Origin: Zobellia alginiliquefaciens
Lineage (GTDB): Bacteria > Bacteroidota > Bacteroidia > Flavobacteriales > Flavobacteriaceae
Length of the DNA: 64,000 nt
Direction of reading: 5' to 3'
NCBI RefSeq assembly: GCF_029323795.1
Contig: NZ_CP119758.1
Location: forward strand, 2,418,001 to 2,482,000
Shown here one piece after another: positions 6,768-55,100 of this stretch (position 1 is its first letter; the number at the start of each line of letters is the position of its first letter). The notes under the pieces were generated by a model. It was not told the origin of the DNA. It made no database searches and was given only the letters and a program-made list of their open reading frames with translations. A program made the translations under genes and the position numbers.

Positions 6768-6797
6768 GATTTTAGTTTTTTGATTGGATTGATGATG

Positions 6798-9233: not shown

Positions 9234-9263
9234 GATTCTCGTTTTTTGATTTAATTGATGACC

Positions 9264-19752: not shown

Positions 19753-20829
19753 TTAGATTTTTGCTGAGGTAGTGGTCGTGTTCTTGTCTTTCGCTTTTTC
19801 CAAAGTAAAAGAAAATTCCGAACCTACGTCTATTTCACTTTCTACATATATCTTTTCTCCGTGTGCCTCTACAATATGTTTTACTATGGCAAGACCAAGA
19901 CCTGACCCACCTTCACTACGGCTACCGCTTTTGTCTACGCGGTAAAAACGTTCAAACAGGCGTGGTATATGTTGTTTGGGAATACCTTCGCCATTGTCTG
20001 TTACGCGTACAATTACTTTGTTTTTGATGAGGTTTTCTACACTTACCTCGGTAGTGCCATTGGTGTGGCCGTATTTAATTGAATTTACCAAAAAGTTAGT
20101 TACTACCTGTTGTATTTTTTCCTTGTCCGCAAAGACCATTATGGGTTCATCATACTCCATATCAAAAGTGAGTGTGATTTTCTTCTTTGCAGATTTCATT
20201 TCTAAGAGGTCAAAAACATTCTGTATAAGTTCAATAATGTCAAACGGCTCTCTATTAAGATTAAGATCGCCTACCTCTAGTTTTGTAATGAGATCTAGAT
20301 CTTTAACAATGTAAATTAACCTGTCTACGCCCTTATTAGCCCGTTGAAGATATTTGCGACGCACATTTTTGTCGTTTATAGCGCCATCCAAGAGCGTTTC
20401 TATATAGCCTTGAACGGTAAAAAGTGGAGTTTTAAGCTCGTGCGATACGTTACCAAGGAAGTCTTTTCTGTATTCTTCCCTAATTTTTAAGGTGTCTATT
20501 TCTACACGTTTGTCTTGGGCAAACTTCCCTATCTCTTCGGTTAGGGTTTTCATATCGGTCGTTATGGGGCCTGTGCTAATAGATGAGGTTTCCAACATGG
20601 CAACATCATCATAAATCTTTTTAATACGACGATAAATGAACCTTTCTATTCGTATCTGTAAAACAATGAAGGCAATAGGAAATAGTAGTAGGGCAGAAAT
20701 AATGATTGCCGTCCAGTCAAAAGAATTGAAAAGATGTAGGAACAATGCCAAAAGCGATACAAATGCCACGGAGATCATAAAAGAAGACCTTAGCGCAAAG
20801 CGATATGACCTTCTTAGTTTAGCGGACAT
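19753..20829 (-). CDS. PhoR-like sensor histidine kinase
   Basis: The preferred start is the ATG at 20827-20829, giving 358 residues (MSAKLRRSYRF). An in-frame upstream Met at 20895 would add 22 residues with no membrane or domain character. Two membrane helices follow, then a short linker and a HisKA domain with NVSHELKTPLFTVQGYIETLLDGA, typical of PhoR. The HATPase domain has NSIKYG, DNGEGIP and GSGLGLAIVK. No PAS or sizeable sensor domain is present. It is cotranscribed with the PhoB-like regulator upstream. By likeness to PhoR it may respond to phosphate through a partner, but this is not shown by the sequence. Confidence 0.88.
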   Translation of the reverse strand: MSAKLRRSYRFALRSSFMISVAFVSLLALFLHLFNSFDWTAIIISALLLFPIAFIVLQIRIERFIYRRIKKIYDDVAMLETSSISTGPITTDMKTLTEEIGKFAQDKRVEIDTLKIREEYRKDFLGNVSHELKTPLFTVQGYIETLLDGAINDKNVRRKYLQRANKGVDRLIYIVKDLDLITKLEVGDLNLNREPFDIIELIQNVFDLLEMKSAKKKITLTFDMEYDEPIMVFADKEKIQQVVTNFLVNSIKYGHTNGTTEVSVENLIKNKVIVRVTDNGEGIPKQHIPRLFERFYRVDKSGSRSEGGSGLGLAIVKHIVEAHGEKIYVESEIDVGSEFSFTLEKAKDKNTTTTSAKI

Positions 20830-20941
20830 AAGAAAACGGTTTTGTTTGTGCCGAAAAAATGGGTATGTATAATCATGGAACGAGTCACCGCCCAAAATTA
20901 CTACAAAAAAGACGTATAACTTAATTAATAGGCAGACTTAA

Positions 20942-21628
20942 TTAAAGAACAAACTTGTAGCCAACCCCTTTTACAGTCTTAAAATGTTGTTCGCCTATCT
21001 TCTCACGAAGTTTTCTGATATGAACGTCTATAGTACGCCCACCAACAACAACCTCGTTACCCCAGACCCTGTCAAGAATAACTTCTCTTTTGAAAACTTT
21101 ACTAGGTTTGGAGGTGAGTAGGGCCAAAAGTTCAAACTCTTTTCTTGGCAGAACAATCTCTTCGCCGTCGTTAATTATTTTGTATTCCTCTCTGTTAATG
21201 ATAATGTTACCAACGGTTACAATATCATCTTGTGGTGCGTTATCTTCTTTTAACCTTCTTAATAAGGCCTTTACCTTACTCACCAAAACTTTTGGTCTAA
21301 TAGGTTTGGTAATATAATCGTCCGCACCAGCATCAAAACCCGCTACTTGAGAGTAGTCCTCTCCACGAGCGGTTAGAAAGGTAATGATTGAATTTTCTAG
21401 ACCCGCTGTGCTACGAATGGTTTCACAAGCTTCAATGCCATCCATTTCTGGCATCATTACATCTAAGATAATTAAATGGGGTTGTTTCTTCTTGGCCATG
21501 GCAACGCCTTCAACTCCATTCTTGGCGGTAAAGACCTGATAACCTTCGGAAGTTAGGTTGTAGCCTACTATTTCTAGTATATCTGGCTCATCGTCAACAA
21601 GTAATATCTTAATGTCTTTCTTTTTCAT
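20942..21628 (-). CDS. PhoB/OmpR-family response regulator
   Basis: This 228-residue regulator has a receiver domain (VDDEPDILEIVGYNL, phosphoacceptor in ILDVMMPEMDG, Lys in ITKPI) and a C-terminal OmpR-type winged helix (EFELLALLTSKPSKVF, VWGNEVVVGGRTIDVHIRKLREK). It is transcribed ahead of the PhoR-like kinase. The divergent gene is the duplicated lipoprotein, which is followed by a TonB-dependent receptor. This arrangement suggests that the regulator controls that pair. A role in phosphate control fits the nearby phosphatase locus but is inferred. Confidence 0.9.
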   Translation of the reverse strand: MKKKDIKILLVDDEPDILEIVGYNLTSEGYQVFTAKNGVEGVAMAKKKQPHLIILDVMMPEMDGIEACETIRSTAGLENSIITFLTARGEDYSQVAGFDAGADDYITKPIRPKVLVSKVKALLRRLKEDNAPQDDIVTVGNIIINREEYKIINDGEEIVLPRKEFELLALLTSKPSKVFKREVILDRVWGNEVVVGGRTIDVHIRKLREKIGEQHFKTVKGVGYKFVL

Positions 21629-21681: not shown

Positions 21682-21742
21682 AACGTCTCTTAACGTTGAT
21701 TTAATATAGTAACGTTAACCTAACCTTATTGCAATAAAGGTT
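21682..21742. promoter_or_regulatory. Repeat-rich control region between PhoB-like regulator and lipoprotein
   Basis: AACGTC at 21682, AACGTT at 21692 and AACGTT at 21711 recur on one strand, the first pair one helical turn apart. They are followed by an imperfect 21-base palindrome at 21722-21742 (AACCTTATTGC with GCAATAAAGGTT). The divergent genes are regulator and putative target, so this is the likely site for PhoB-like binding. No match to the Escherichia coli Pho box can be claimed. Confidence 0.4.
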
Positions 21743-21842
21743 TAACATACGCGTAACTCGACTTTTACCTCACGTGGCTTTATTTGCGGTGTTCAAATTG
21801 AGTATAACTCGTAACATAAAAATGAAGCTAAATACTAACAAA

Positions 21843-24335: not shown

Positions 24336-27152
24336 ATGCTGAAAAAAATACTCTTTGCAACTACCCTTGTTCTCGCACAATGGTGTTTTGCTCAAACCGG
24401 GACCATATCAGGGAAAATGATGGACGGTGAGTTTAATGATGTACTTCCGTTTGCCAATATCTTGATAAAGGGAACCACCATAGGAAGCTCCTCCGATTTT
24501 GATGGGGTGTATGCCTTGGAGGTTGAGCCCGGTAAGTACACAGTTTCGTTTTCATATATTGGTTACACATCCAAAGAAATTACCGATGTAGTTGTTGAAG
24601 CTGGTAAGGCTACTGAAGTGAACGTAACACTTCAGCCTGCTTCCGCTCAGTTAGATGAAGTAGTTGTGACAACTACAGTAAGCAAGAACACGGAAGCATC
24701 GGTTTTAAACCTTCAAAAAAATTCGGTTAACCTTATGGATGGGTTATCGTTAGAGGCTATAAAAACTACTGGGGCTAGTAATATTGCCTCGGCTATTAAG
24801 AGTGTACCAGGGGTATCGGTGCAAGAAGGAAAATATGTGATTGTAAGAGGTTTGGGGGATCGTTATACCAAATCTATTTTAAATGGAATGGATATACCAG
24901 GTTTGGATCCGGATAAAAACACGGTTCAGATGGATATATTTCCTACCAATATTCTAGAAAATGTAATCGTTCTAAAATCTGCCGCAGCGGAATTGCCTGC
25001 TGATTTTACCGGGGGTGTGGTAAACGTGGTTACCAAAGATTTTCCTGCTCAGAAACAGATGTCTTTTTCTGCGTCTGTGGGTTATAATAACAATATGCAC
25101 TTTAAAGATAATTATTTATCCTACGAAGGTGGTGGAACTGATTTCCTTGGTTTTGATGATGGTACAAGAGAGTTGCCTATTTCTAAACAGGCGGTTATTC
25201 CAAGCCCATCTTCTTCGGAGAATGAAAATTTAGAGGGTATTACACGTTCTTTTGAAAAAACTATGGCCACGGAACGGCAAAATTCGAAACCCGATTTTAG
25301 CCTAGGTTTTAGTTACGGAAATCAATTTGACGTAGGTGATAACAAACTTGGTTTTATTGCATCTTTAGATTATAAAAACACCACTACTTTTTACGAGGGC
25401 TTTGAAAACGGTATCTACCAAAAAAACCCTGAAAGTGATGTTAACGAACTACGTTTTGATAGAAGGCAAGAAGGGGATATAGGTTCTAATAACGTATTGG
25501 CATCTATTTTAACGGGCTTGTCTTATAAAACGGGCAAATCTAAGTACCGTTTAAACTTTCTTCACATTCAAAATGGAGAGTCAAGAGCGGCACTTTATGA
25601 TCAAGAAACACAAATTTCCAATTCTATTGAAGTAGTTAAGGATAACCTTGAATATACACAGAGTTCGGTAACTAACTTATTGCTTTCTGGTAAACATACG
25701 TCTGAGGATGCTTCGTTTGTTACAGAATGGAGTTTGTCACCCACTTTGGCCAAAGTTCATGATAAGGATATAAGGTTGAGTACTTTTATTGTTGAACCTA
25801 ATGGTTTCTCTATAAGTCCTGATGCTGGTTTTCCTCAACGTCTTTGGAGAAATCTTGAAGAAACCAATGCTGTAGGAAAAATTGATTTTTCTAAGAGTTA
25901 TGAAATGTTCGGCAACAAGTCTATGTTGAAATTTGGTGGTCTTTACAGTTACAAGCAAAGAGAGTATGATATTCAAAACTATAGAATTCGTTTCTTTGAT
26001 TTTACAACAGCGGACCTAAACGGTGACCCGGATTTAATTTTGGCAGATGAAAATATATGGAGCTTGGATAATAATTCTGGATCTTATTTTAGCGGTAACT
26101 TTCAGCCAGCTAACAACTACGATGCAGAACAGAATACCATTGCGGCATATCTTTCCAATGAGTTTAAATTTTCGGAGAAGTTCCGTGCTATCCTTGGCTT
26201 AAGAGCTGAGCAGTTTACAACGTATTTTACAGGTCAAAACAATACAGGTAGTGAAATCTATGATAATGAAAAAACCATAGATGAACTTGATTTCTTTCCT
26301 TCTGCAAATTTAATTTACGGATTTAAGGAAAATATGAACTTTAGAGTTTCATATTCAAGAACTACGGCTCGTCCAAGCTTTAAAGAACTTTCAGTAGTTC
26401 AAATTACAGATCTTTTAACGGGTACACTTTTCATAGGTAATTTAGATTTGGTTCCTACCTATGTTGATAATTTTGACTTCAGGTATGAGGTTTTTGGAGA
26501 CAGGGCTCAGATGTTGGCTTTCAGTAGCTTTTATAAAAAACTAAAAGATCCTATTGAGATAGTAGCTTACAGTAACGTAGCGCCTAATCAGATTACGCCT
26601 CGTAATGCCCCTTCTGCTGATATATTTGGATTAGAATTTGAAGCGCGTAAGAATTTTGGATTTATTTCTGAGTCACTTAGTAACTTAAGCGTAAACTTAA
26701 ATGTCTCTGTTATTGATTCTAAAATTGAAATGGCAAAAGGTGAGGACCAAGAATATGAAACTAGACTTGCTTTTGCTAGAGATGGTGAAACAATTGAAGA
26801 AACGAGAGAGCTGCAAGGGCAATCTCCTTACCTAGTAAATGTGGGTATAAACTATAATAACAGGGAAACTGGATTTGAAGCCGGAGCATTTTTTAACGTT
26901 CAGGGCAAAACGTTACAAGTTATTGGTTTTGGTCAAAATGCTGACGTTTATACGCAACCTTTCAATAGTTTGAATTTCAATATATCTAAGGCCTTTGGAG
27001 AGGAGCAACGCTCTAAAGTAAGTTTTAAAGCGAACAACATTCTTGGTGATGATCGTGAAAGTCTTTACGAATCTTTCGGAGGAATTACAAACCGTTACTC
27101 TTACAGGGATCCGGGTGTATCATTCTCTTTAGGATATAGCTTATCATTTTAA
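24336..27152 (+). CDS. TonB-dependent outer membrane receptor with N-terminal carboxypeptidase-regulatory-like domain
   Basis: This 938-residue protein has a signal peptide ending LAQWCFAQ, a carboxypeptidase D regulatory-like domain (about 22-108, GTTIGSSSDFDGVYALEVEPG), a plug domain (about 125-235, VIVRGLGDRYTKSILNGMDIPG) and a C-terminal barrel ending VSFSLGYSLSF, with the terminal Phe of an outer-membrane beta signal. It is not of the SusC type. It imports an unknown ligand powered by TonB-ExbBD. It follows the duplicated lipoprotein after a terminator hairpin, so the pair probably forms a receptor with a surface lipoprotein partner. Confidence 0.92.
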   Translation: MLKKILFATTLVLAQWCFAQTGTISGKMMDGEFNDVLPFANILIKGTTIGSSSDFDGVYALEVEPGKYTVSFSYIGYTSKEITDVVVEAGKATEVNVTLQPASAQLDEVVVTTTVSKNTEASVLNLQKNSVNLMDGLSLEAIKTTGASNIASAIKSVPGVSVQEGKYVIVRGLGDRYTKSILNGMDIPGLDPDKNTVQMDIFPTNILENVIVLKSAAAELPADFTGGVVNVVTKDFPAQKQMSFSASVGYNNNMHFKDNYLSYEGGGTDFLGFDDGTRELPISKQAVIPSPSSSENENLEGITRSFEKTMATERQNSKPDFSLGFSYGNQFDVGDNKLGFIASLDYKNTTTFYEGFENGIYQKNPESDVNELRFDRRQEGDIGSNNVLASILTGLSYKTGKSKYRLNFLHIQNGESRAALYDQETQISNSIEVVKDNLEYTQSSVTNLLLSGKHTSEDASFVTEWSLSPTLAKVHDKDIRLSTFIVEPNGFSISPDAGFPQRLWRNLEETNAVGKIDFSKSYEMFGNKSMLKFGGLYSYKQREYDIQNYRIRFFDFTTADLNGDPDLILADENIWSLDNNSGSYFSGNFQPANNYDAEQNTIAAYLSNEFKFSEKFRAILGLRAEQFTTYFTGQNNTGSEIYDNEKTIDELDFFPSANLIYGFKENMNFRVSYSRTTARPSFKELSVVQITDLLTGTLFIGNLDLVPTYVDNFDFRYEVFGDRAQMLAFSSFYKKLKDPIEIVAYSNVAPNQITPRNAPSADIFGLEFEARKNFGFISESLSNLSVNLNVSVIDSKIEMAKGEDQEYETRLAFARDGETIEETRELQGQSPYLVNVGINYNNRETGFEAGAFFNVQGKTLQVIGFGQNADVYTQPFNSLNFNISKAFGEEQRSKVSFKANNILGDDRESLYESFGGITNRYSYRDPGVSFSLGYSLSF

Positions 27153-27235: not shown

Positions 27236-28339
27236 CTAGACTTTTATGTAAATCTTCTTTTTATCCAACCAAAGGCCTATACTCCAACAAAAGAGCATAA
27301 AAACCAGAGCAAAGGCTAGAGAACCAAAGTAAGGACCGATCCAACTAAAACCTTTTTCGTACACATAGCTATAAAGTGATTGCTCACCATTAACCCGGAT
27401 AAAGAGAGCGCCAATAGCTACATATTCCGAAAGTAGATAAATGAAAAGCGGGTTCTTCCCAAATACCTCAAAGAAATTGTAATTAACGGGTTTTTTTACA
27501 AAGTCTATGGTATAGACAAGTACGGATAACACTACAATGTCTAGACCCACGGTAAGTGTTACAAAAGAGCTTGTCCATAATTTTTTGTTTACCGGGAAGC
27601 CTAAATCCCATAGATAGGCAACCACCAATAGACCGGCACCCATCAGTAGCATTTTTGCCAGCTTCTCGTAATTCATGCCGCCATCAATAATATATTTTCC
27701 AATAAGATAGCCTACCAAGACGTTACAAATGGAAGGCAGCGTGCTCAAAAGTCCTTCCGGATCAAACGGTATACCATTGCCTATATATAGATGACTATCA
27801 CCTAGTATAAGACGGTCTACGGTTCTGGCAAAGTTTCCTTCAAGGGTATAGTCGCCAAATGCGGCCAACAGTCCCCAATAGCTTAGTAACAAGATAACCG
27901 AAGCTATGATCAGTTGCCTATTGGTTAAAAAGTATATCATCACGGCCCCAATAAAATAACATAAAGCTATGCGTTGGAGTACCCCAAGAATGCGTGTTTC
28001 ACTAAACGGTACGGCAGCAAGGTTACCGGTTTCTGTCCAGGAAACAAACGGGATCCAGTACATGATATACCCGAGTAAAAAAATAATCAAGGTGCGCTTC
28101 GCTATTTTTTTGAATACTTCGGAGAAAGGTTTGTCTCCCCATTTGGTCTTTACAAAAGCAAAGGCGTTACCTACTGCAAATAAAAACGAGGGAAAAACCA
28201 AATCGGTAGGTGTAAAGCCATGCCATTTGGCGTGTAACAGAGGTGAAAAGGTAGAGTTCCAGTCGCCAGGGGTATTTACAATAATCATTAGGCATACGGT
28301 CAATCCCCGGAATACATCGAGCGCTTTAAATCTTTTCAT
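27236..28339 (-). CDS. NagX-like (heparan-alpha-glucosaminide N-acetyltransferase-type) membrane protein, DUF5009
   Basis: The 367-residue protein has about ten membrane helices and opens with RFKALDVFRGLTVCLMIIVN, the signature of the COG4299/DUF5009 family related to eukaryotic HGSNAT. These are thought to transfer acyl groups across the inner membrane to amino sugars. The conserved catalytic region GWHGFTP is seen here as AKWHGFTPTDLVFP. It is the last gene of the SusCD locus, 12 bases after the phosphatase fusion gene. Its presence hints that the imported ligand contains an amino sugar, but this is inference. Confidence 0.88.
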   Translation of the reverse strand: MKRFKALDVFRGLTVCLMIIVNTPGDWNSTFSPLLHAKWHGFTPTDLVFPSFLFAVGNAFAFVKTKWGDKPFSEVFKKIAKRTLIIFLLGYIMYWIPFVSWTETGNLAAVPFSETRILGVLQRIALCYFIGAVMIYFLTNRQLIIASVILLLSYWGLLAAFGDYTLEGNFARTVDRLILGDSHLYIGNGIPFDPEGLLSTLPSICNVLVGYLIGKYIIDGGMNYEKLAKMLLMGAGLLVVAYLWDLGFPVNKKLWTSSFVTLTVGLDIVVLSVLVYTIDFVKKPVNYNFFEVFGKNPLFIYLLSEYVAIGALFIRVNGEQSLYSYVYEKGFSWIGPYFGSLAFALVFMLFCWSIGLWLDKKKIYIKV

Positions 28340-30244: not shown

Positions 30245-31834
30245 TTACCATCCTTTATTTTGGGGGATTCCAGATGATTCAATAACTGTACTTGGTATAG
30301 GCCAAACGTGCATGTAGGAAGCGTCAAAATTTCTAGCCGGCCAAACAATCTCTGAGGTGTACGGAGAGTCCGGGTTGGAACGATCTGTATAAATACGGCC
30401 GTATATTGGCTCAGCATAGGTAGCAGCGGCATCTCCCCAACGTACAAGATCAAAATGTCTGTTGGCAAATTCGCCGGCCAATTCTACTCGTCTTTCATGT
30501 TTTAAATCCTCCATAGTGGCATTGGTAATTGCAGGAAGACCCGCTCTTTCACGAACCATATTCAATGGGGCATCACCATTTTTTCCATCCATAATTAATG
30601 CTTCGGCTTTCATAAGTAAAACTTCCGCGTAGCGCATTAGTGGAACATTGTATACTGTAGATGGGTCATCTCCATTACTGTTCAGATAAGTTCCGATAGG
30701 ATTTTCGAACTGGAACTCATACATGTATTTGTTGAATTGAAACCCGGATAAAGAGTTCTCCGATTGGTATCTTCGGTCTTCTCCGAAAAAGGTAAAGTCA
30801 TCGCCAAAATTTAAAATGGTAACCGCCTTTCTAGCATCATCTGCTTCAAACTCATTGTACAATCCTTCGGAAGGCGTATAATAGCCCCAGCCATTATATT
30901 TACCCCAACCCTTGTTCTCTAGCATAACACCGGTTAGAATGCTGCCTTTGTCCACTCCGGAGTTTACGGACCAAATATATTCGCTGGTCCAATTGTTTAA
31001 ATGACTGTGCAGTTCTCGGTAATCTTGTGATGGATTGCCCGTGTTGATCAATGCTCTGCCAGACCCGCTGTTGGTAACGGCATCCACATGTTTCACCACC
31101 TCGGCATATCTAGAAGCATCATATTGTGCCCAGTAGAGGTTGGTTTTTGCCATGTATGCCAATGCAGCATCTCTATGAGGGCGGCCATAATTTTCGGAAG
31201 AATAGTCGGTAAACAAGGGCAGTAATTCGGCAGCTTTCATTAAATCTGCTTCTATCTGCTTGTAATTTTCGACAACACTTGCCGGTCTTGAGTAGCTACC
31301 GGGTTCATCGTTCATATTCTCTTCCGTAATGATGGGGACACCCCCGTTTTCTCCATTATCTCCATAGGTATGGGCTACCCAGAAATAACTGAAAGCACGC
31401 ATAAAATAAGCTTCTCCTAAATATTGGTTTTTTAGGGTTTCGCTAATATCCATATTGGGTACATTTAGAATAACATCATTGGCACGACGTATTACTTTAT
31501 AGCTATTGGGGTAGCAAGTTGAGGTGTAACCGCCTTCGCCACCGGTGATATTAAAGTCTTTGATATTATCTGCAGAAGCTTTAATACGACCCGTAATCAT
31601 ATCGTCCGAAGCGTTAATGTACCAGAAGAAACCTCTAGAGAACATCTCTTGGTCGGTCATATAGGCGTACATACTGTTCACCGCTTCCGAGGCATCTTGC
31701 TCGGAGGTCCAAAAGTTGGCGTAAGATGTGCTTCCAAGCGGACTTACCTCTGTGAAATCGTCTGAGCATGTAATGAGGTTTAGACCTGCTAGACCTACTA
31801 CCAAACTCATTGTTTTTATTCTATTGAATTTCAT
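30245..31834 (-). CDS. SusD/RagB-family surface lipoprotein
   Basis: The 529-residue lipoprotein has its anchor Cys at 23 (LNLITCSDDF). The SusD helical TPR-like N-terminal region is visible in LGEAYFMRAFSYFWVAHTYGD, and the C-terminal RagB signature in LMRYAEVLLMKAEAL, RRVELAGEFANRHFDLVRWGD and YMHVWPIPSTVI. It forms the lid of the SusC channel and captures the ligand outside the cell. It follows SusC by 18 bases. The ligand cannot be told from sequence. The neighbouring phosphodiesterase-phosphatase suggests a phosphorylated compound. Confidence 0.95.
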   Translation of the reverse strand: MKFNRIKTMSLVVGLAGLNLITCSDDFTEVSPLGSTSYANFWTSEQDASEAVNSMYAYMTDQEMFSRGFFWYINASDDMITGRIKASADNIKDFNITGGEGGYTSTCYPNSYKVIRRANDVILNVPNMDISETLKNQYLGEAYFMRAFSYFWVAHTYGDNGENGGVPIITEENMNDEPGSYSRPASVVENYKQIEADLMKAAELLPLFTDYSSENYGRPHRDAALAYMAKTNLYWAQYDASRYAEVVKHVDAVTNSGSGRALINTGNPSQDYRELHSHLNNWTSEYIWSVNSGVDKGSILTGVMLENKGWGKYNGWGYYTPSEGLYNEFEADDARKAVTILNFGDDFTFFGEDRRYQSENSLSGFQFNKYMYEFQFENPIGTYLNSNGDDPSTVYNVPLMRYAEVLLMKAEALIMDGKNGDAPLNMVRERAGLPAITNATMEDLKHERRVELAGEFANRHFDLVRWGDAAATYAEPIYGRIYTDRSNPDSPYTSEIVWPARNFDASYMHVWPIPSTVIESSGIPQNKGW

Positions 31835-31852: not shown

Positions 31853-34800
31853 TTAGAGCGATAATGATAAACCTGCAGTGATGGTTCTTGATAATGGATA
31901 TCGTGCAACATCTAATCCTTTGCCACCAACCTCAGGATCAATACCTGTATAATCCGTTATCGTAAATAGGTTTTCTGCTGAAATGTAGAAACGTAGAGAT
32001 GAGCCGGGCAATAGGGAACGCATAATACGGTCATCTACAGTGTAGCCCAACGTAACATTTTTCATTCTTAAATACGAAGCGTCTTCAAGATACCAGCTAG
32101 AGGCCAAGCCAAAGTTCTGGTTGTCATCTTTTGTTGACAATCTAGGTGTTGTGGCACTGGTATTGGTAGTGGACCAAGCATCAAGCACTCTGTTGTCTAG
32201 ATTGTAACCTGTTAATGAAGCGTTATAAGTAGAGAATTTATAGCCATTGAAAACTTCAACACCAGAAACTCCTTGGAACAGCATACCTAAATCAAAGTTT
32301 TTATAATTTAGGTTTAAACCGAAGTTGTATGTGAAATCTGGTTGGTAGCTATCGTAGAACACTTTGTCATTGTCATCTATCTTACCATCATTATTGCTAT
32401 CTGCAAATTTGAAATCTCCTGGCTGTGCGTTAGGCTGTATTAAGTTACCCTCTTTTGTATGGGCGTCAATTTCTGACTGATTTTGAAATATACCCAATTG
32501 AGGAACTACATAAACGGAATATAATGACCTTCCTACTTCGGAGCGGTACGGTCTAAGTACACCTCTTACATTATCCGAATGTGCAATAAAATCAATACCA
32601 CTGCTGTTGTATCCATCTAAGTTTACCAATTCATTGTCCAGCACACTGGTATTGGCATTGAGGGTGAAATCTAAGTCGCCGACCTTGTTGGAGTAGCTGG
32701 CCGAGATTTCAAAACCATTGTTTTTAACCTCTCCGCCATTCACGTCTGCAGCGCTTGTACCTTGGTGTAAATCTTCAAGCCCTGGCAATATCATGCCTTT
32801 GGTGTTTTTTTCGAAATAATCAAAAGTAAGGCTCAGAGTATTATTGAATAGTGCAGCATCAAGACCAAAGTTGATGGATTCCGAAACTTCCCAATTAAGG
32901 TTTGGATTGGATTGTTTTCCAACATACGAACCTTTGTCGTCAAAAGAAGCATCTTCTCCAATGGTAACAACAGTGGTATTCAAAGGAACATCAAATGAAT
33001 AATAGCCTACCGAATTAATATTTCCTATTTGTCCCCAAGAAGCTCTGAATTTTAGATCATTAATAGCTCCAACATTAAAGAAGGACTCATCTGATAATCT
33101 CCACCCAACTGTTGCGGATGGAAAATTGTCCGCTTGGTTATTGGCGGCAAGTCGTGAGGTCATATCTCTTCTGATACTTCCAGAAATAAAATAACGGTTC
33201 TTGTAATTGTACATTACCCTGCCTATGGCGGAGGTTAATGCATCTTCATACACTTCTGTTGTTGGATTTCTAATCACGGAAGCATTGGATAGATACTGGT
33301 TAAATGCCTCTTCATTACTGAAGCCTTCGCCTCTGCTGGATAATTTTTCAAAATCAGTATGCTGAGAAGAATAAATGGCCGTTACATCTAGATTATGGTC
33401 TCCAAATGATTGTTTGTAGCTCAGCTGATTGTCCCATACCCAACGGTTTGTTGTGGCGTTAGACTGATCCAGATAATTGTTAGGGTTGGAACGGCCTAAC
33501 TCTGGTACTCTAGGCTGAAACCTTTTGTACTCTGTATTGGTGTAACTGTAGGAGTAATTGGTCTTAAAGGATAGTCCGTTTATAATATCGTATTTTAAAA
33601 ATACGTTGGCATTTAAAAAGTTGGTAGGTGAGGTGGTGGTTGGCCGCAACAATAACGCCAATGGGTTGTAGACATCTCCATAAGCTCCTGCAAATTGCGA
33701 TAATTCTTCTGGTGCTACACCGGCAAAACTACCATCTGCATAACGTGTGGGGGACGCAGAAGGCATGTAAATTGCGTTGATGATCGTTCCTGAGTACGGA
33801 TTGTCCGTATTGGTTCCTACAGCTTCGGAGCGTGAGAAATAAACATTCTCTCCAATCTTTATTTTATCCGAAAGGTCAAAATCCGACTTCACCCTAAAAT
33901 TATACCGTTCTGAGCTGGTGCCTTCCAAAAGACCGTTTCTTTTGGTATAGCCAAATGAGGTTAGGTAGTTCATGCTTTCTCCCGCACCGCTAATATTAAC
34001 ATTGGCATTGTTCATTCCCGCTGGGCGAAAAATAGCATCTACCCAATTGGTACGGTTTACTTGTCCGTAAGGGTTTTGTTCGGCGTCATGTGCGGATTGT
34101 CTAGGTGTACCTGCGTTATCTGCAGCTGTATTGTATACATTGGCTTGCTCTTGTGCCGTAAGTGGTGTAGGCAAATTAGTGGCTTCTTGGATACCACCAT
34201 AGTAATCTACAGTAATGCGAGGTTTTCCTATTTCACCTTTTTTGGTCTGGATAACAATAACACCAGATGCCGCTTGCGCGCCGTAAATAGCTGCTGATGC
34301 CGCATCTTTAAGAACGGAAACCGAAGCAATATCATTAGGGTTAATGGCCGGACCATAGTAAGGAACACCATCTACAACCGTAAGTGGTTGCTCATTGGCG
34401 AAAGTTCCCAAACCACGTATAACTACGTTACCGCTAGAGGTGGGGTCACCACCTTGACTAAGTACCGTTACCCCCGCAACGTTACCTTGCAAGAACTCCG
34501 TAATGTTGGCAACAGGTCGTGAGGCAATGCTCTCCACGTTGTTGACCGTTGCAATTGCTGTGGTTAAATCACCTTTTCTAGAAGAACCGTAGCCAATAAG
34601 AACTACTTCATCTAAAAAACTAGCTTCTTCACTTAAAGCTACATTTAGGGTTTGATCTCCTGAAAAAGGTATTTCCTTACTGGCAAAACCTAATGAAGAG
34701 AAAACCAATGTTCCGCTTTCTTCTGAAATGTTTATAGTAAAGTTACCGTCAAAGTCTGTGGAGGTTCCTATTTGATTACCTCCTTTTAATATAATGGATA

Positions 34801-34918
34801 CAGAGGGAATTGGCATCCCGTCCATTTCGGAAACTACCGTTCCCTTTACTGTTACTTGCGAATAAGAAAAGGAAATACATCCTAATGCTATTAGCAGAAC
34901 TAAGTACACTTTTTTCAT
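31853..34918 (-). CDS. SusC/RagA-family TonB-linked outer membrane protein
   Basis: The 1021-residue receptor has a signal peptide (to SYS/QV, about residue 20), a carboxypeptidase-regulatory-like domain (about 22-105), the SusC motif in the plug region (EVVLIGYGSSRKGDLTTAI) and GVIVIQTKKG, followed by a large barrel ending TAGLSLSL. It imports ligand captured by the SusD partner using TonB energy. It is the first gene of the operon, placed 180 bases from the regulator gene, with repeated motifs in the gap that could be the regulator's binding sites. Confidence 0.95.
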   Translation of the reverse strand: MKKVYLVLLIALGCISFSYSQVTVKGTVVSEMDGMPIPSVSIILKGGNQIGTSTDFDGNFTINISEESGTLVFSSLGFASKEIPFSGDQTLNVALSEEASFLDEVVLIGYGSSRKGDLTTAIATVNNVESIASRPVANITEFLQGNVAGVTVLSQGGDPTSSGNVVIRGLGTFANEQPLTVVDGVPYYGPAINPNDIASVSVLKDAASAAIYGAQAASGVIVIQTKKGEIGKPRITVDYYGGIQEATNLPTPLTAQEQANVYNTAADNAGTPRQSAHDAEQNPYGQVNRTNWVDAIFRPAGMNNANVNISGAGESMNYLTSFGYTKRNGLLEGTSSERYNFRVKSDFDLSDKIKIGENVYFSRSEAVGTNTDNPYSGTIINAIYMPSASPTRYADGSFAGVAPEELSQFAGAYGDVYNPLALLLRPTTTSPTNFLNANVFLKYDIINGLSFKTNYSYSYTNTEYKRFQPRVPELGRSNPNNYLDQSNATTNRWVWDNQLSYKQSFGDHNLDVTAIYSSQHTDFEKLSSRGEGFSNEEAFNQYLSNASVIRNPTTEVYEDALTSAIGRVMYNYKNRYFISGSIRRDMTSRLAANNQADNFPSATVGWRLSDESFFNVGAINDLKFRASWGQIGNINSVGYYSFDVPLNTTVVTIGEDASFDDKGSYVGKQSNPNLNWEVSESINFGLDAALFNNTLSLTFDYFEKNTKGMILPGLEDLHQGTSAADVNGGEVKNNGFEISASYSNKVGDLDFTLNANTSVLDNELVNLDGYNSSGIDFIAHSDNVRGVLRPYRSEVGRSLYSVYVVPQLGIFQNQSEIDAHTKEGNLIQPNAQPGDFKFADSNNDGKIDDNDKVFYDSYQPDFTYNFGLNLNYKNFDLGMLFQGVSGVEVFNGYKFSTYNASLTGYNLDNRVLDAWSTTNTSATTPRLSTKDDNQNFGLASSWYLEDASYLRMKNVTLGYTVDDRIMRSLLPGSSLRFYISAENLFTITDYTGIDPEVGGKGLDVARYPLSRTITAGLSLSL

Positions 34919-34950
34919 TTAGTTGATTTTTTTAGAATTGGATTACCGTT

Positions 34951-34958
34951 CAAAAGTA
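34951..34958 (-). promoter_or_regulatory. Bacteroidota -7 promoter element for the SusC operon
   Basis: On the minus strand TACTTTTG matches the -7 consensus TAnnTTTG of this phylum, 33 bases before the SusC start codon. A convincing -33 TTTG is not seen (CTGG at the right distance), as expected for an activator-dependent promoter. Confidence 0.5.
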
Positions 34959-34992
34959 GATGGCGGCATTGCTTAACCAGATGAAAAAAGAA

Positions 34993-35051
34993 TCACAAAG
35001 GTGCACTTATGACTCACAAAAGGGGGTGAATGGTTTCTTTTTAGTGCACTT
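34993..35051. promoter_or_regulatory. Direct repeats upstream of SusC promoter (candidate regulator sites)
   Basis: GTGCACTT occurs at 35001-35008 and 35044-35051, 43 bases apart (about four helical turns). TCACAAA occurs at 34993-34999 and 35014-35020, 21 bases apart (two turns). They sit 35-95 bases upstream of the -7 element, where an AraC-type activator would bind. Confidence 0.5.
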
Positions 35052-35098
35052 TTGTTACAATAATTATAGCGTAACCTTGTGATAATATGCTGATAACA

Positions 35099-38000
35099 TT
35101 AAACCTTTGAGGTTTTTGCCCGATATTCTTTTGGGCTACACTCAAAATTTTTCTTAAAGAGGCGGCTAAAGTATTTGGGATCGTTAAAACCACATTCCAT
35201 ACTTATTTCTGAGATGTTCAAAGTGTGGTTTTTGAGAAGATATTCTGCTTTTTGCAGACGTAGTTTTATAATCACGTCAGAAGGAGATTGTTGCAACACT
35301 TCCTTAAAAGCTCGATAGCATTTTATTTTCGATACAAACAGCATTTCCTTTAGTTTTTGAACGTTGAAAGAAGGGTCGTTCAGGTTCTCATTGATAAGGT
35401 TCAATGCCTTTTTTACCAATTTTTCGTTCACGGATAAAGTTTGGTCTTCAGTAAACGGGGTTTCAAAAAACAGGTGTTTAGATGAATTGTTGGCGTATTT
35501 TTTTCTTACGGATAAAAGTTTGGTAAGCTTACTTTGGATAAAAGACTTGCTTACAGGTAATTGTATAAAGGCATCCACGCCCAGCTCAGTGGTCTGTAGA
35601 CGTAAAGAATGGTCAATATCTTCTGAGATGTATAGTATAGGCAGCGTAATTTGTACACCGTTGTGCTTGGTAAGGTGAAAGAGTTTCACCAGCTGTTCGT
35701 CAATAGGTACATTGTACAGTATTAAACAGTGGATATCAACATGTTTTATGGCCGAAGCAATTGCTGCCGTAGTTCGCTCAAATACCAAATTGTTTTCCTG
35801 GTGATCAAACAATTGAAATGCAGGTAGGTAATCATTATCATTACAGAAGATAAGGATGTTATTTTTATCGGAGGGTAGTTTTTCGTTCAGGTCTAAATGC
35901 TTCCAGAGCACTTCTTCAATCTTATTAGAATCAGTATCCACCACATTTATGGGTAGATGTACGGTGATCGTTAAGTTGTTCTCATGGCTCACCGTAAGAG
36001 TGCCCTCCATAGCCGTTAAAAGGGTGTTTGCCGCTCTAAAATACGGACTGTAATGCTGTATGCTAAAAAAATTATCGATTAAGACTTTACTGTCGGACTC
36101 CACATGGAGTTCAAGAGACTCTTTTGTTATTACGCTTACTTTTAGATAACTGCCTTTGGAAATGTATTTTAAGATATCGTTAAACAGATATTTGAAAAAT
36201 AGTTTAAATCGTAGAGAATCTAATTCAACCCATTGGTTTTCTATAGCCAGTGAATAGTCCAGATTTACCTTGGATTTTTTGGCCTGTACCGAAAGTCCGT
36301 CTATAAGAGCTTTTACCGTCTGCTTTATTTTGGTGGCCGATTTTTTTAATTCGCCAATATCTTTAGAATTGGTAAGGTAGTCCCACTCAGAAAGCAATGT
36401 GATCAGTTTACTGGATTCGGCATTGATGTTCAGTTTTGCACTTTCATCTTCAATAAGAGTTTTAGAGTTTTCAATTATTTTAGAAACAGGTTCTTTAAAC
36501 TCGGACAGAACAAAGGTCTTGAACTTTTCAATTTCAAAATCTTCATTCTTTAATTGATGATAGGAGTTTAGCAGTTCTTCTCTCTGGCGATTTATCTCCT
36601 TGTTCTTTTCATCCAGTGTCTGGTTTACTTTAATTAAGCGTTCCTTTTGCCGGTTAATGGTATCGGTTCTTTCTTCTATTTTTAGTTCTAGTTCTCTCTG
36701 GTTTTTTGCTATGTTCCTATTTCTGGTTAAAACCCAAATCGTGAAAGTGGTAAGTGAAGTAATTAGCAGTAGAATATAGAACCAAGTGGTTTTGTAAAAT
36801 GGTTTTTGGATTATTATAGGTATACTGGAAATGGCCAGGTCATTGGCCAAAGAATTTTTGACTTCAAATTTATATTCCCCATCGGGGATATTTGTATATT
36901 GAATAGGATTGTTCTTGAACGTTTGAAAACCGTTGTCATAGCCCGATAGTTTATATAGGACCTTATTGTTTGGGTCGTTGGAAAAAACAATAGGTTCAAT
37001 TTTTATCTCTAATGAGTTTTCTCCGTAACTTTTAGTAATGCCTTGCGAGAATTCTCTAGTGTTGTCTATATTTATTTTTAGTTTGGGCAGTTCTTTTGTG
37101 ATGTTCAAGGAAGCAGGGGAGAAGTAGTTTAATCCATTAATTCCGGCAAAGAACAAGGTGCCTTTTCGGTCTTGGTAGTAAGCACCTTCTGAAAATTCCC
37201 GAGCCTGCCAACCTTCATCCATATTTAATGGGGTTACCACAAAATTACTTCGTTCTACCGTGGCTATTCCTTTAGTGGTGCTTATCCAAATTTTATCACC
37301 TTCTAAAAGCAGACCGTATACCATATGGCTGGGAAGCCCTTCGTTTTCGGAAATATTATGAACAATCCCTTCATTTTTATCATATACACTGATTCCCCCT
37401 AAGCTTGCAATCCAATAATAGCCAGATTGTTTGTCCTTAAAAGAGGAAAAGACACTATTACCTAAAATACCGTCATTAACGGTGATTTTTTCCAATGCAC
37501 CAGTGTCTACCTCCAGTATAAAAAAACCTTGATTTTCTGTGCTGATCAAAAGTTCATTATCTGCAAATGTGATATTTCTAATATGATATTCGTTAAGCGC
37601 GTTTTGACCTTTAAAAGGTTCAAAGGTGTTGGTTTTTAAATTGAATTTAGCAGCTCCTCCCCAGCAGGAAATCCAAAGGTTGTTTTGGTGGTCTTCATGA
37701 AAAGAATAATTTCTGTCATTGGGAAAGGCATCAATATTCTTGGATTCATATAGTTGGTACGTATGGTCTGTTATTCTAATAATTCCGGCATAGGTTCCAA
37801 CCCAAATCTCACCTTCGGAAGTGGTGTATAAAGAACGAATACGCTCCCAATCTCCGTTCTCTTGGGCTTCTTGAACATTATATTTTACAAAACAACCTAG
37901 GTCCAGATCAAAATAAAGAAGCCCCTGTGTATAATAGCCTAGCCAAATTCTACTTTTAAAATCGGTAGTAATGGCCCGTATGGTTTCATTGGGTAGGTGC

Positions 38001-38818
38001 GGAAATTTTACGGGGTGCGGGGTAATTGTGGTTATTTTATCTGAATTGGTATAGGCCATACTTAGCCCGCCATCTTTGTGCCCCAGCCATATGTTTCCAA
38101 AATCGTCTTCGTACAACTTTTCAACTTCGTCACTATTAAAACTATGTGGGTTGTACAGATCATGAAAATAGTGGTCTATTTGTTCATTATTAAGATTGTT
38201 ACGATGGTTAGGGATAATGTAGACCCCGTTTCTTCTGGTGGCGTACCATATATGACCGGATTTGTCCTTTAGAACATCATTTATGATATTGTTAGGGTGT
38301 TTCTTAAGTAGAATGTCTTCTAAAATGCGCTTATCTTCTTTTTTTTCAACAAATTGATTTTCTATGAATTCACCATCTATAAATTCATAGTTGTTTTTTT
38401 GAGTTGTAATGCCAATAGTGCCGTTCTGGGTAATCATTAAATTCTTTGGGGTGGTATCAAAAGAGAAATTTTGGAATTTATCATTCCCAATATATCTGCT
38501 TAGCTTTTTATCTTTGGTCAGCACCCATATATTGCCCGCTATGTCTTTTTTTAAGTGCTCTATATTGTTTCCGGCTATGGAATTGGGTACTTTAATGTCA
38601 TGTTTGTAAACGGTAAATGTGCTACCGTTATAGCGGTTTAATCCATCCCAAGTGGCAATCCATAAGGCACCATCATCATCGCTCACCATATCCGTAACGG
38701 AATTATTGGACAACCCATCATTGGTGCTAAGCGTTTTGAATTTTATATTCTGGGCATAAGCAGTATTGCTGAATAGCAATATTGAGAAATTAAGAAAAAG
38801 ATAATATAGCAATCTCAT
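35099..38818 (-). CDS. Hybrid two-component regulator (HTCS) with degenerate kinase and receiver, AraC-type output
   Basis: The start at 38816-38818 gives a signal/anchor peptide (MRLLYYLFLNFSILLFSNTAYA) and 1239 residues. A periplasmic two-propeller sensor (reg_prop repeats such as LSNNSVTDMVSDDDGALWIATWDG), a Y_Y_Y domain, one membrane helix (about 690-710) and a coiled coil follow. In the kinase part, the box expected to read SHEFRTPL reads LSEFKEPV, with Ser near residue 772 in place of His. The ATPase N, G1 and G2 boxes are not recognisable. The receiver has lost its acidic pair (FCNDND), its phosphoacceptor (LYNVP) and its Lys (QLP). The AraC helix-turn-helix (about 1140-1239) is intact. 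It probably activates the adjacent SusC operon without a phosphorelay. Confidence 0.9.
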   Translation of the reverse strand: MRLLYYLFLNFSILLFSNTAYAQNIKFKTLSTNDGLSNNSVTDMVSDDDGALWIATWDGLNRYNGSTFTVYKHDIKVPNSIAGNNIEHLKKDIAGNIWVLTKDKKLSRYIGNDKFQNFSFDTTPKNLMITQNGTIGITTQKNNYEFIDGEFIENQFVEKKEDKRILEDILLKKHPNNIINDVLKDKSGHIWYATRRNGVYIIPNHRNNLNNEQIDHYFHDLYNPHSFNSDEVEKLYEDDFGNIWLGHKDGGLSMAYTNSDKITTITPHPVKFPHLPNETIRAITTDFKSRIWLGYYTQGLLYFDLDLGCFVKYNVQEAQENGDWERIRSLYTTSEGEIWVGTYAGIIRITDHTYQLYESKNIDAFPNDRNYSFHEDHQNNLWISCWGGAAKFNLKTNTFEPFKGQNALNEYHIRNITFADNELLISTENQGFFILEVDTGALEKITVNDGILGNSVFSSFKDKQSGYYWIASLGGISVYDKNEGIVHNISENEGLPSHMVYGLLLEGDKIWISTTKGIATVERSNFVVTPLNMDEGWQAREFSEGAYYQDRKGTLFFAGINGLNYFSPASLNITKELPKLKINIDNTREFSQGITKSYGENSLEIKIEPIVFSNDPNNKVLYKLSGYDNGFQTFKNNPIQYTNIPDGEYKFEVKNSLANDLAISSIPIIIQKPFYKTTWFYILLLITSLTTFTIWVLTRNRNIAKNQRELELKIEERTDTINRQKERLIKVNQTLDEKNKEINRQREELLNSYHQLKNEDFEIEKFKTFVLSEFKEPVSKIIENSKTLIEDESAKLNINAESSKLITLLSEWDYLTNSKDIGELKKSATKIKQTVKALIDGLSVQAKKSKVNLDYSLAIENQWVELDSLRFKLFFKYLFNDILKYISKGSYLKVSVITKESLELHVESDSKVLIDNFFSIQHYSPYFRAANTLLTAMEGTLTVSHENNLTITVHLPINVVDTDSNKIEEVLWKHLDLNEKLPSDKNNILIFCNDNDYLPAFQLFDHQENNLVFERTTAAIASAIKHVDIHCLILYNVPIDEQLVKLFHLTKHNGVQITLPILYISEDIDHSLRLQTTELGVDAFIQLPVSKSFIQSKLTKLLSVRKKYANNSSKHLFFETPFTEDQTLSVNEKLVKKALNLINENLNDPSFNVQKLKEMLFVSKIKCYRAFKEVLQQSPSDVIIKLRLQKAEYLLKNHTLNISEISMECGFNDPKYFSRLFKKNFECSPKEYRAKTSKV

Positions 38819-52132: not shown

Positions 52133-52171
52133 GAAAAATTGTTTATGGTTCCAAAATACAAAATATTGAGA

Positions 52172-55100
52172 ATGAATGGTATTCTATTACGTAAACATTT
52201 TACTTTAATAGCATTGGTTTCTCTATTGGCAAGTTGTGCCACTTCTAAGTCTAAATACGCAAGTGAAGTAGGAAAAACGGATGTTCCCACCTCAAAAGAA
52301 ATAGCACATACATTTTTTTTAATTGGAGACGCGGGCCTATCTCCTATGAACGGGATGAACGATGCTCTTAAGATTTTTAAGGCTAAATTGGATGGGGCGG
52401 ATCAAAATAGTACAGCACTATTTTTAGGGGATAATATCTACCCAGCAGGTCTTCCTGATCCCATTGATTCTACTGCAGCCTATATTAAGGCTAAAAATGA
52501 CCTTGACGCCCAATTAAAAACATTGGAAAATTTTAAAGGGAAACCCATTTTCATTCCTGGTAACCATGATTGGTATACTGAAGGTCTTGTAGGTTTAAAG
52601 CGAGAACAGGACTATATTCAAGAACATTTAGATAGTGACGAGGTTTTTTTTCCTGAAGATGGGTGTCCTATAAAGACTATTGAAGTCAATGATAAAGTGG
52701 CTATAATAGCAATAGATACAGAATGGTACCTAACAAATTGGAACCATCGTCCGGATATCAATGATAAATGCGATATCAAGACTCGAGATAGATTTTGGTT
52801 AGAACTAGAGGATGAAATTAAGGATAACCGGCAGCGCACTACTATAATAGCCGCGCACCACCCAATGTTCAGTTATGGTACGCATGGCGGGCAATTTTCA
52901 CTCAGGTCACATTTCTATCCTAAAGGTAATATTGGGCCGCTTCCTATTTTTGGTAGTTTTATTAATGTTTTGAGAAAAACAACGGGGGCATCTGTTGAAG
53001 ATATGCAGAACAAGCGGTATACGGAGTTAAGAAAACGCTTGTTGACATTGGCACAGTACTCCAATAAAGTAATTTTGGCATCGGGTCATGAACATACGCT
53101 ACAATATATCGTGGAGGAGAATACACCACAGATTGTGAGTGGTTCAGGCGCTAAATCCGGTGCAACGCGTTTGTTGAATGGAAGTAAATTCTCAACTGGT
53201 CAAAGGGGCTATGCTACGTTAGAGGTCTACAATGATGGTTCTTCCCAAGTACGTTATTTTGGAGTAGATGAAAATAAAGAAGAGGAGTTTTTATTTACAT
53301 CTCAGGTATTACCTCCGGACAGGGAATTTTTTGAAGAGAATTATCCGGAACAATTTGCAGATAGTGTTGAGGCTTCAGTGTATAGTAACGATGAGGTAGA
53401 AAGGAGCGGTTTTTTTAAATTCTTATGGGGAAACCGATATCGAGATTATTATAATGCCAAGGTTAAGGTTCCAACGGTGAATTTAGATACGCTCATGGGA
53501 GGTCTTAAACCTGTACATATGGGAGGTGGGCATCAATCAAAATCATTGCGATTACGTCATAAAAGCGGAAAGGAATATGTTATGAGGGCCATTCGTAAAA
53601 ATGCGGAATTGTACCTGCAGGCTATGGCATTCCAAGACCAATACGTGATGGGTGATTTTGAGGGAACGTATACAGAGAAATTTCTTCTTGACTTTTATAC
53701 CGGATCACATCCGTACGGGGCTTTTACCGTTGGTGTATTGTCTGATGCAGTTGGACTGTTTCACACCAACCCGGTTTTGTATTATGTGCCAAAACAACCG
53801 GCATTAAAAGGATATAACCAATCTTTTGGCGATGAGCTTTATATGATTGAAGAACATACCGGTGACGGACATGGCGATTTAGAAAGCTTTGGTTTTGCAA
53901 ACGACTTAAAAAGTACGGACAGCATGCTCGAAGATTTACGTGATGATGAGAAATATTCCGTAGACTCTGAGCTATACTTAAGGGCTCGCCTTTTTGATAT
54001 GGTTATGGGAGATTGGGACCGTCATGTGGACCAGTGGAGATGGGCGGAATTTAAAGATAAAAAAACAAAAATGGTAGTTTACAAGCCGGTACCACGGGAT
54101 CGTGATATGGTCTTTTCAAAACATGGTGACGGTCCGCTTATGAAGCTAGCAACTAGAATTGTACCGGCATTACGCTTAATGGAGGGTTTTGATGATAAAA
54201 TAAGAAATGTAAAAGGATTTAATTCTTCGCCTAAAACATATGTATTGGATATGGCCCTTTTAACCGAGACTACGTTGGAGGATTGGCAAAAACAGGCTCA
54301 GTTTATAAGAGAAAACATAACTCCTGAGGTAATAGATCAAGCCTTCAGGCATTTTCCAATAGAAGTAAGGGATAAGACAGCTGCAGATATAAAAAAGATG
54401 TTGTTGGCCAGAACAGCCCATATTGAGGAAACCGCACGCATTTATTATGGCGTTTTAAATAAATATGCGGTAGTTGTAGGAACGGATAAAGATGATTGGT
54501 TTGAGGTGAACATCTTAAACAACAAAGAAACCGAGGTCAAAGTCTACCGAAATATTAAAGGTAAGAAAGATAAGTTGTACTTCAGTAAAGTATTCAATAG
54601 GGAAAATACTAAAGAAGTATGGGTCTACGGTTTAGATGATGATGATATTTTTGAGGTAAACGGAGATAACAGAAGCGCTATCAAAATGCGCTTGGTGGGA
54701 GGTCAAAATAATGACATCTATCGTGTGGGCGAAGGTGGGAACATCGCTATATATGATTACAAATCAAAAAAGAATACAATTGAAGAGCGTAGCGGTTCTA
54801 AATTAAAACTTACGGATGATTACAATACCAATAACTATTTGCCTTTGCAAATCCGTAATTCGGTCAATCAAATAGTTCCAACTATAGGTTTTAATCCGGA
54901 TGACGGGGTTAAAATAGGAATCAGTGACACCTATACGTACAACGGCTTCAGGCAGAACCCTTTTACGCAACAACATAAGGTAGATGCTTCGTTTTACTTT
55001 GCGACCAGTGGTTTTGAATTAGGATACGGAGGGGAATTTGCCCATATTTTTGAAAATTGGAATTTACATTTGGGAGCTCGTTTTACAAGTCCAAATTTTG

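Follow-up and report, generated by a model that had tools for sequence, protein, structure and literature searches.

A conserved regulator of Zobellia descended from a hybrid two-component system has lost its phosphorelay residues and may act as a one-component transmembrane activator

Can a regulator of the hybrid two-component system (HTCS) type still control its genes once the residues of its phosphorelay are gone? The question is raised by a gene in a stretch of 64,000 nucleotides from Zobellia alginiliquefaciens (assembly GCF_029323795.1, contig NZ_CP119758.1, positions 2,418,001 to 2,482,000; hereafter the window), where it heads a susC-susD-phosphatase locus. The original prediction, made from the sequence of the window, described an HTCS that has lost its kinase, ATPase and receiver motifs and that would pass ligand binding mechanically to its DNA-binding domain. 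We found the relay residues to be replaced in a conserved clade of such proteins, in which the signal probably passes by shape change alone. As comparison set for canonical HTCSs we used Bacteroides thetaiotaomicron BT4663 and BT4124 (PMC11253607) and nine of ten Y_Y_Y-containing paralogues from the same genome, three further Y_Y_Y matches of this genome lying outside the paralogue set.

The regulator gene, on the minus strand, was confirmed as an open reading frame of the predicted 1239 codons; an alternative start at TTG 38839 would give 1246. Behind a signal peptide (residues 1 to 22, judged by eye), a propeller and Y_Y_Y sensor, a transmembrane (TM) helix and an AraC-type output follow each other in a single chain, which is the layout of an HTCS. 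Pfam matches were obtained to Reg_prop (E = 1e-26), Y_Y_Y (2e-6), HTH_18 (4e-20) and HTH_AraC (4e-12), and the solved chain nearest to the sensor by sequence is 4a2l (E = 2e-54). As far as HMMER's filters allow, no match to HisKA, HATPase_c or Response_reg appeared with E of 1 or less, while the same library gave HisKA, HATPase_c and Response_reg scores of 41.0, 89.7 and 87.6 bits for the intact same-genome paralogue L024 and of 55.3, 92.2 and 86.5 bits for L033.

Residue counts were taken from a single alignment holding 24 rows of the regulator and its orthologues (pseudo rows) and 14 rows of intact hybrid kinases, nine from the same genome and five from others. The frameshifted copy L088 entered neither the residue counts nor the tree or the training of the motif, and the kinase L030 was kept out of the intact counts. 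At the position of the kinase histidine, the pseudo rows carry serine (17) or alanine (7) and the intact rows histidine (14/14); the window regulator has Ser772 there, as predicted, and no histidine anywhere in residues 764 to 833. The N-box asparagine is replaced by aspartate (22) or glutamate (2), as opposed to 14 asparagines in the intact rows. In the window regulator this residue is Asp881 and the first asparagine of the box has become Tyr877. Because the N-box helix and Lys884 are kept, the earlier description of the N box as unrecognizable was slightly too strong. The G1 region reads ESDSKVL, and the segment running from G1 to beyond G2 has 30 residues in 24/24 pseudo rows versus 42 to 49 in the intact ones (12 to 19 fewer), so that both the ATP lid and G2 are gone.

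The receiver was likewise found to lack its acidic pair, its phosphoacceptor aspartate and its lysine. Cys992-Asn993 stand in place of the Glu-Asp pair, with an aspartate one column further on; the second acidic position is still Asp or Glu in 12 of the 24 pseudo rows, the window copy not being among them. The phosphoacceptor position holds Asn (12), Gln (10) or Asp (2) versus 14 Asp in the intact rows, and is Asn1036 in the window regulator. The two orthologues that keep the aspartate are L059, in which a weak Response_reg match remains (E = 0.011), and L064. The lysine is leucine in all 24 pseudo rows (Leu1087 in the window) versus lysine in all 14 intact rows, and only the Thr/Ser position survives (Ser1065). 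All four relay residues are kept in 14/14 intact hybrid kinases.

Alignment with intact hybrid kinases, proposed with the original prediction as a check, located no intact relay residues elsewhere in the protein. A profile of 18 remnants aligned by hhalign over 339 columns (E = 8e-16, Prob 98.6) with a profile of the 14 intact modules, composed of dimerization and histidine phosphotransfer (DHp), catalytic and ATP-binding (CA) and receiver (REC) domains. Since the whole remnant aligns in this way, the relay residues are replaced rather than misplaced, and a misalignment of motifs was rejected because the profile-profile alignment and two multiple alignments agree. Among solved structures, the remnant profile found an HTCS receiver, 12aw_A, at E = 4e-7, and its best match to the ATPase domain of a kinase had E = 0.0015. 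As judged from these alignments, the regulator descends from an HTCS DHp-CA-REC module, as had been proposed, and on its residues a phosphorelay within it is excluded. As a control, the phosphoacceptor histidine was kept in 30/30 Y_Y_Y-bearing kinases (23 by pattern and 7 by reading the sequence), which were drawn from the top-scoring Y_Y_Y loci in 100 genomes of the family rather than at random; one of them, L001, comes from the source genome, and L001 and L150 also belong to the 14 intact rows. The remnants have in turn acquired invariant residues of their own: Tyr877, Ser910 and Leu1087 in 24/24 rows, and Tyr885, Ser924-Pro925, Tyr1035 and Glu1066 in 19/19 rows.

Two further features set the regulator apart from canonical HTCSs. 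The span from the TM helix to the former histidine measures 73 to 75 residues in 24/24 pseudo rows versus 26 to 40 in 14/14 intact hybrid kinases, about twice as long; L030, a kinase with no receiver in the alignment, has a span of 50 and a similar coiled coil. Furthermore, the S/CHIP motif is lost, its histidine being threonine in the window regulator and present in 2/24 pseudo versus 13/14 intact rows; the DK half of the S/CHIP-DK motif could not be confidently placed in the alignment.

The regulator is present in 6/8 other Zobellia genomes at 75 to 88% identity (E ≤ 1e-60). Across the family, the remnant matched in 20/397 genomes (E ≤ 1e-6), 16 of them strongly: the source genome, 3 other Zobellia and 12 other genera. 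The four weak matches (L067 to L070) are hybrid kinases with an intact histidine, and three of these (L067 to L069, about 990 residues) match in the cytoplasmic part only. A further genus, g142, contributed six matches in the order sample and 6 of the 61 genomes in its own sample (further g142 matches, L123 to L127, one split over two contigs, lie outside the analysis). The regulator thus occurs in 13 other genera of the Flavobacteriaceae, and among the copies examined all frames are open bar one frameshifted copy. At E ≤ 1e-15, at least 12/395 genomes of the order sample and at least 5/395 of the phylum sample, two overlapping samples, were matched, all from the same family. Wherever examined, the losses are common to the 14 genera, Zobellia included. 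The 23 pseudo rows entered into a tree with the 14 intact rows, L086 and L030 being left out, formed one clade (100/100) apart from the intact rows. The original prediction had named orthologues with intact residues as a sign of decay; the five intact candidates, L067 to L070 and L034 (28% identical), were rejected as orthologues, having kept the histidine and falling outside the clade.

The propellers and the AraC domain were said to be well preserved, and they are the best conserved parts: mean identity to the 12 other genera is 63% for the AraC domain, 53% for the propeller, 48% for the TM helix and coiled coil, 38% for Y_Y_Y and 36 to 43% for the remnants. The AraC domain (residues 1131 to 1236) has no gap column across the 24 pseudo rows, and coiled coil and remnants have few. 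Ratios of nonsynonymous to synonymous substitution rates (dN/dS) for HisKA, CA, REC, AraC and propeller were 0.018, 0.071, 0.033, 0.020 and 0.068 in the closest Zobellia pair, and 0.25, 0.10, 0.014, 0.044 and 0.14 in the other close pair. On these ratios the remnants are under purifying selection within Zobellia. Because the orthologues stay open, share the losses and show low dN/dS within Zobellia, the regulator is by sequence a conserved protein and not a decaying copy.

We compared 23 intergenic regions between the regulator gene and susC, with L010 and L014 excluded. From the regulator towards susC, they contain an array of four 11-bp RTTA-N7 repeats, direct repeats of 21/22 bp and a -7-like element. 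The direct repeats start at 0, +21, +43 and +64 (59 sites in 22 regions), few regions showing all four; in the window, the copies at 35043-35063, 35022-35042 and 35000-35020 were scored and the fourth, 34979-34999, was placed by spacing only. In 15 nonredundant regions, lags of 11, 21, 22, 43 and 64 gave z values of 10.0, 6.4, 7.4, 6.3 and 4.6, each reached by 0/500 shuffles. Predicted HTCS motifs are direct repeats with a mean spacing of 21 bp (PMC3878776), and the repeats upstream of susC, which have this spacing, represent a putative operator of HTCS type. The best score of the RTTA array was the full 16/16 in nine regions and 15 in a further eight; 14, 13 and 12 were each the best in two regions, and the 13 of L061 is perhaps within reach of resampled sequence (8/200). 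Across the source genome, with up to one mismatch allowed, the RTTA pattern was found 17 times and a reversed control pattern 7 times. In 15/23 regions, the first repeat is followed at +105 or +107 by the motif TAnnTTTG, which we take to be a -7-type promoter element; four more regions have a version ending in A at +105 or +106. A scan of positions 34800 to 35200 for sigma-70 promoters and terminators found nothing.

All 12 of 12 other genera keep the order regulator-susC-susD, and in 11 of them the next gene encodes a homologue of the phosphatase with its GDPD_2 segment. SusCD beside a phosphatase or phosphodiesterase is the arrangement of a PUS locus, and GDPD_2 was found in 6/6 tested phosphatases from other genera and g142, five above the cut-off. 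In Wenyingzhuangia marina (L021:13864-23678), a second SusCD in tandem takes the place of the phosphatase up to the end of the compared stretch. All six g142 loci (L083 to L088) keep the regulator and the phosphatase homologue, and have the second SusCD type of W. marina (59 to 64% identical), their SusC being 32 to 33% identical to that of Zobellia; an extra open reading frame precedes the phosphatase in three of the six. The SusCD type thus switches between lineages while the regulator and the phosphatase homologue stay. In four Zobellia loci, a NagX/HGSNAT-like gene comes after the phosphatase gene. The locus resembles PUSII of Flavobacterium johnsoniae, in which a SusCD-type pair is combined with a PhoA-type phosphatase bearing the same extra domain (pf00245 and pf13653) and is induced by phosphate depletion (PMC8115612). 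The PUSII regulator is listed there as FecR-like, and the Zobellia locus has the pseudo-HTCS instead.

The RTTA array resembles a PHO box, and it also occurs upstream of a PhoB-like gene in the window, which suggests that phosphate starvation, through PhoB, could be a second input at the susC promoter. PhoB-like homologues were found in 16/16 searched genomes, all chosen as carriers of the regulator. Within 250 bp upstream of these genes, the array reached 15 of 16 in eight cases, a score matched by 0 to 1 of 200 resampled sequences; six had 14 (2 to 9 of 200) and two had 13 (22 to 23 of 200). Upstream of a second PhoB-like gene of the source genome, it scored 11 (177/200). The PHO box could not be anchored on PhoU (PF01895), since PhoU was not found in the source genome; it was present in 13/14 control genomes. 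Given the mixed array scores and a PhoB name below the cut-off, the PHO-box identity of the array is a good lead and not a result. Because a PUS-type organophosphate locus carries a PHO-box-like array, a context not mentioned in the original prediction, the regulator may share control with PhoB and not be the sole switch. Divergent from the PhoB-like gene lies a gene for a protein of 818 residues with no Pfam family (21774-24230, plus strand), adjoining a TonB-dependent receptor gene (24336-27152); proteins 31 to 32% identical to it are encoded downstream of the regulator locus in three Zobellia loci.

Overall, a one-component transmembrane activator or coactivator descended from an HTCS, probably working with PhoB, is the best reading of these data, with a probability of roughly 0.6. 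The regulator combines a sensor and a DNA-binding domain in one chain without phosphorelay residues, and the one-component transmembrane regulators ToxR and CadC provide the model for its manner of operation; that it activates transcription is inferred from indirect evidence, as is the mechanical passage of the signal. Signaling by shape change is probable because the relay parts were lost, yet the gene is kept intact in relatives beside organic-phosphate scavenging genes. Ligand-driven conformational signaling to a DNA-bound dimer is favored by the conserved sensor, the lengthened coiled coil, the folded remnants with new invariant residues and the HTCS-type repeats. The periplasmic propellers would bind a ligand tied to organic phosphate, which the adjacent SusCD would import and the phosphatase cleave. 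The signal would cross the membrane through Y_Y_Y, the single TM helix and the lengthened coiled coil to the former kinase and receiver modules, which, no longer chemical, may serve the dimer as a conserved scaffold and, as a lever, set the AraC domains on the 21/22-bp repeats upstream of susC; PhoB under phosphate starvation may supply the second input at the same promoter. In a fuller version, which is tentative when taken as a whole, the entire HTCS chassis has become a purely mechanical lever, and together with PhoB it switches a single promoter of fixed geometry in response to two inputs, the presence of organic phosphate and the scarcity of inorganic phosphate.

Several observations weigh against this reading. 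The PhoB identity lies under the curated cut-off (210 versus 296 bits), in 2/23 regions (L062 and L058; 29 and 25 of 200 resampled) the 11-bp array does no better than chance, and the -7-like element is absent by pattern in 4/23. Lags of 42 and 45 were likewise reached by 0/500 shuffles (z of 3.4 and 3.9), and the weight matrix was trained on the same regions that it scored, the lag test being independent of it. The dN/dS values within Zobellia come mostly from near-saturated synonymous sites, and in the other close pair the ratio is 0.25 for HisKA and 0.24 for the coiled coil, on very few changes. The pseudo-domains could also persist for reasons other than force transmission. Finally, two g142 copies (L086:8063-9940 and L088:8990-10869) have lost the propellers and most of Y_Y_Y, about residue 56-65 being joined to about residue 669-677; L086 is open (625 residues) and L088 is frameshifted in the coiled coil. 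These deletions are compatible both with a regulator that stopped working after losing its sensor and with a shortened form that does without one. In g142 the cytoplasmic half may therefore have sensor-free activity or be on its way out.

The open frame of L086 would also suit the foremost alternative, a constitutive DNA-binding scaffold on the operator with PhoB as sole switch and ligand sensing vestigial or mere tuning. The PHO-box-like array adjoining the operator agrees with it, and so does the loss of the S/CHIP motif, since a substitution in this motif allowed phosphorylation-independent DNA binding in a B. thetaiotaomicron HTCS fragment (PMC11253607). However, the propellers rank high in conservation by identity and have low dN/dS in the closest pair, and the other propeller-less copy is frameshifted; we regard such a scaffold as unlikely. 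Slightly less likely still is a second sensor in the cytoplasm, the remnant CA or receiver domain having come to bind a ligand there or a partner protein. Ligand-binding pseudo-receivers are known (PMC12632262) and the new invariant residues would be explained, but the remnants, with Y_Y_Y, are among the least conserved folded parts, and no additional gene was seen to accompany the locus throughout the genera. Freeing of the DNA-binding half from the membrane by regulated proteolysis, once ligand is bound, would need no phosphate either; it would, however, leave coiled coil and remnants little constrained, and their few gap columns and low dN/dS in the closest pair make it improbable. A decaying HTCS pseudogene, suggested by the loss of all catalytic residues and by the two propeller-less g142 copies, one of them frameshifted, is rejected on the open frames in 14 genera, the purifying selection and the conserved locus and repeat array.

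The features of the window are collected in Table 1. Elsewhere in it, three MacB/FtsX-type permease genes stand in a row (4368-11693, minus strand), the first and third products being 32% identical, and a protein of 1252 residues (52139-55897, plus strand) combines a calcineurin-like phosphoesterase domain with a C-terminal match to ShlB that falls just short of the cut-off.

Table 1. Features of the regulator, its promoter region, the adjoining locus and the PhoB- and PhoR-like genes (window coordinates)
Feature	Position	Strand	Basis or remark
Pseudo-HTCS regulator coding sequence	35099..38818	-	1239 codons from ATG 38818, stop included
Periplasmic beta-propeller sensor, residues 23-610	36989..38752	-	Reg_prop
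Y_Y_Y domain, residues 611-679	36782..36988	-	Pfam
Transmembrane helix, residues 680-698	36725..36781	-	Hydropathy
Lengthened coiled coil, residues 699-763	36530..36724	-	Coiled coil judged from sequence
Pseudo-HisKA (DHp), residues 764-833, Ser772 at His position	36320..36529	-	Alignments, profile-profile comparison
Pseudo-ATPase (CA), residues 834-975, N-box Asn replaced by Asp881, lid and G2 deleted	35894..36319	-	Alignments
Pseudo-receiver, residues 982-1110, Asn1036, Leu1087	35489..35875	-	Alignments
AraC-type DNA-binding domain, residues 1131-1239	35102..35428	-	HTH_18, 4e-20
Four 11-bp RTTA-N7 repeats, PHO-box-like	35061..35097	-	Only exact match in source genome
Direct repeats of 21/22 bp, consensus TTttTGaAACAAAAgTnCaCC, putative regulator operator	34979..35063	-	Weight matrix, lag test
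TACTTTTG, -7-like promoter element, +105 from first repeat	34951..34958	-	Pattern scan
SusC/RagA TonB-dependent transporter	31853..34918	-	TIGR04056
SusD-like lipoprotein	30245..31834	-	Pfam
Alkaline phosphatase with GDPD_2 segment	28352..30199	-	Pfam
NagX/HGSNAT-like membrane acyltransferase	27236..28339	-	Below NagX cut-off
PhoB-like response regulator	20942..21628	-	Best NCBIfam match PhoB, 210 bits, below 296 cut-off
PhoR/PnpS-like histidine kinase	19753..20895	-	Below cut-off
11-bp RTTA array upstream of PhoB-like gene	21710..21757	-	Two overlapping one-mismatch matches

With canonical HTCSs, the regulator shares domain order, propeller/Y_Y_Y sensor, AraC output, SusCD neighbors and direct repeats of about 21 bp; unlike them, it has no phosphoacceptor histidine, ATP site or receiver lysine and, in 22/24 rows, no receiver aspartate. 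The idea of a phosphorylation-independent HTCS is not new, because B. thetaiotaomicron BT4236, which has Gln848 for the kinase histidine and deviates from S/CHIP-DK, was already reported and such a mechanism suggested by its authors (Gao, Wu and Stock 2024, PMC11253607). Our regulator resembles BT4236 in both respects. That case is a single histidine replacement in one protein, whereas here kinase, ATPase and receiver are all dead across 14 genera, and BT4236 is thus a partial precedent. The pseudo-histidine kinase DivL (PMC9430884) and bacterial pseudo-receivers (PMC12632262) likewise keep the fold and have lost catalysis; however, DivL regulates a working kinase, CckA, and our regulator instead joins both pseudo-modules and a DNA-binding domain in one transmembrane chain. 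As background, the histidine is missing in 0.9% of HisKA domains and the aspartate in 2.0% of receivers (PMC12632262). Among the papers listed by our searches of the open-licence PMC literature, none described an HTCS clade in which kinase, ATPase and receiver are all dead.

Among the regulators of polysaccharide loci in Bacteroides, HTCSs form a major class (PMC11253607), and the switching of pseudo-receivers has been called a mystery (PMC12632262). With a natural and conserved HTCS in which the whole relay is dead, whose operator and promoter are predicted and whose class of signal is likely, phosphate-free signaling would become directly testable, and Zobellia and its relatives gain a candidate sensor of organophosphate.

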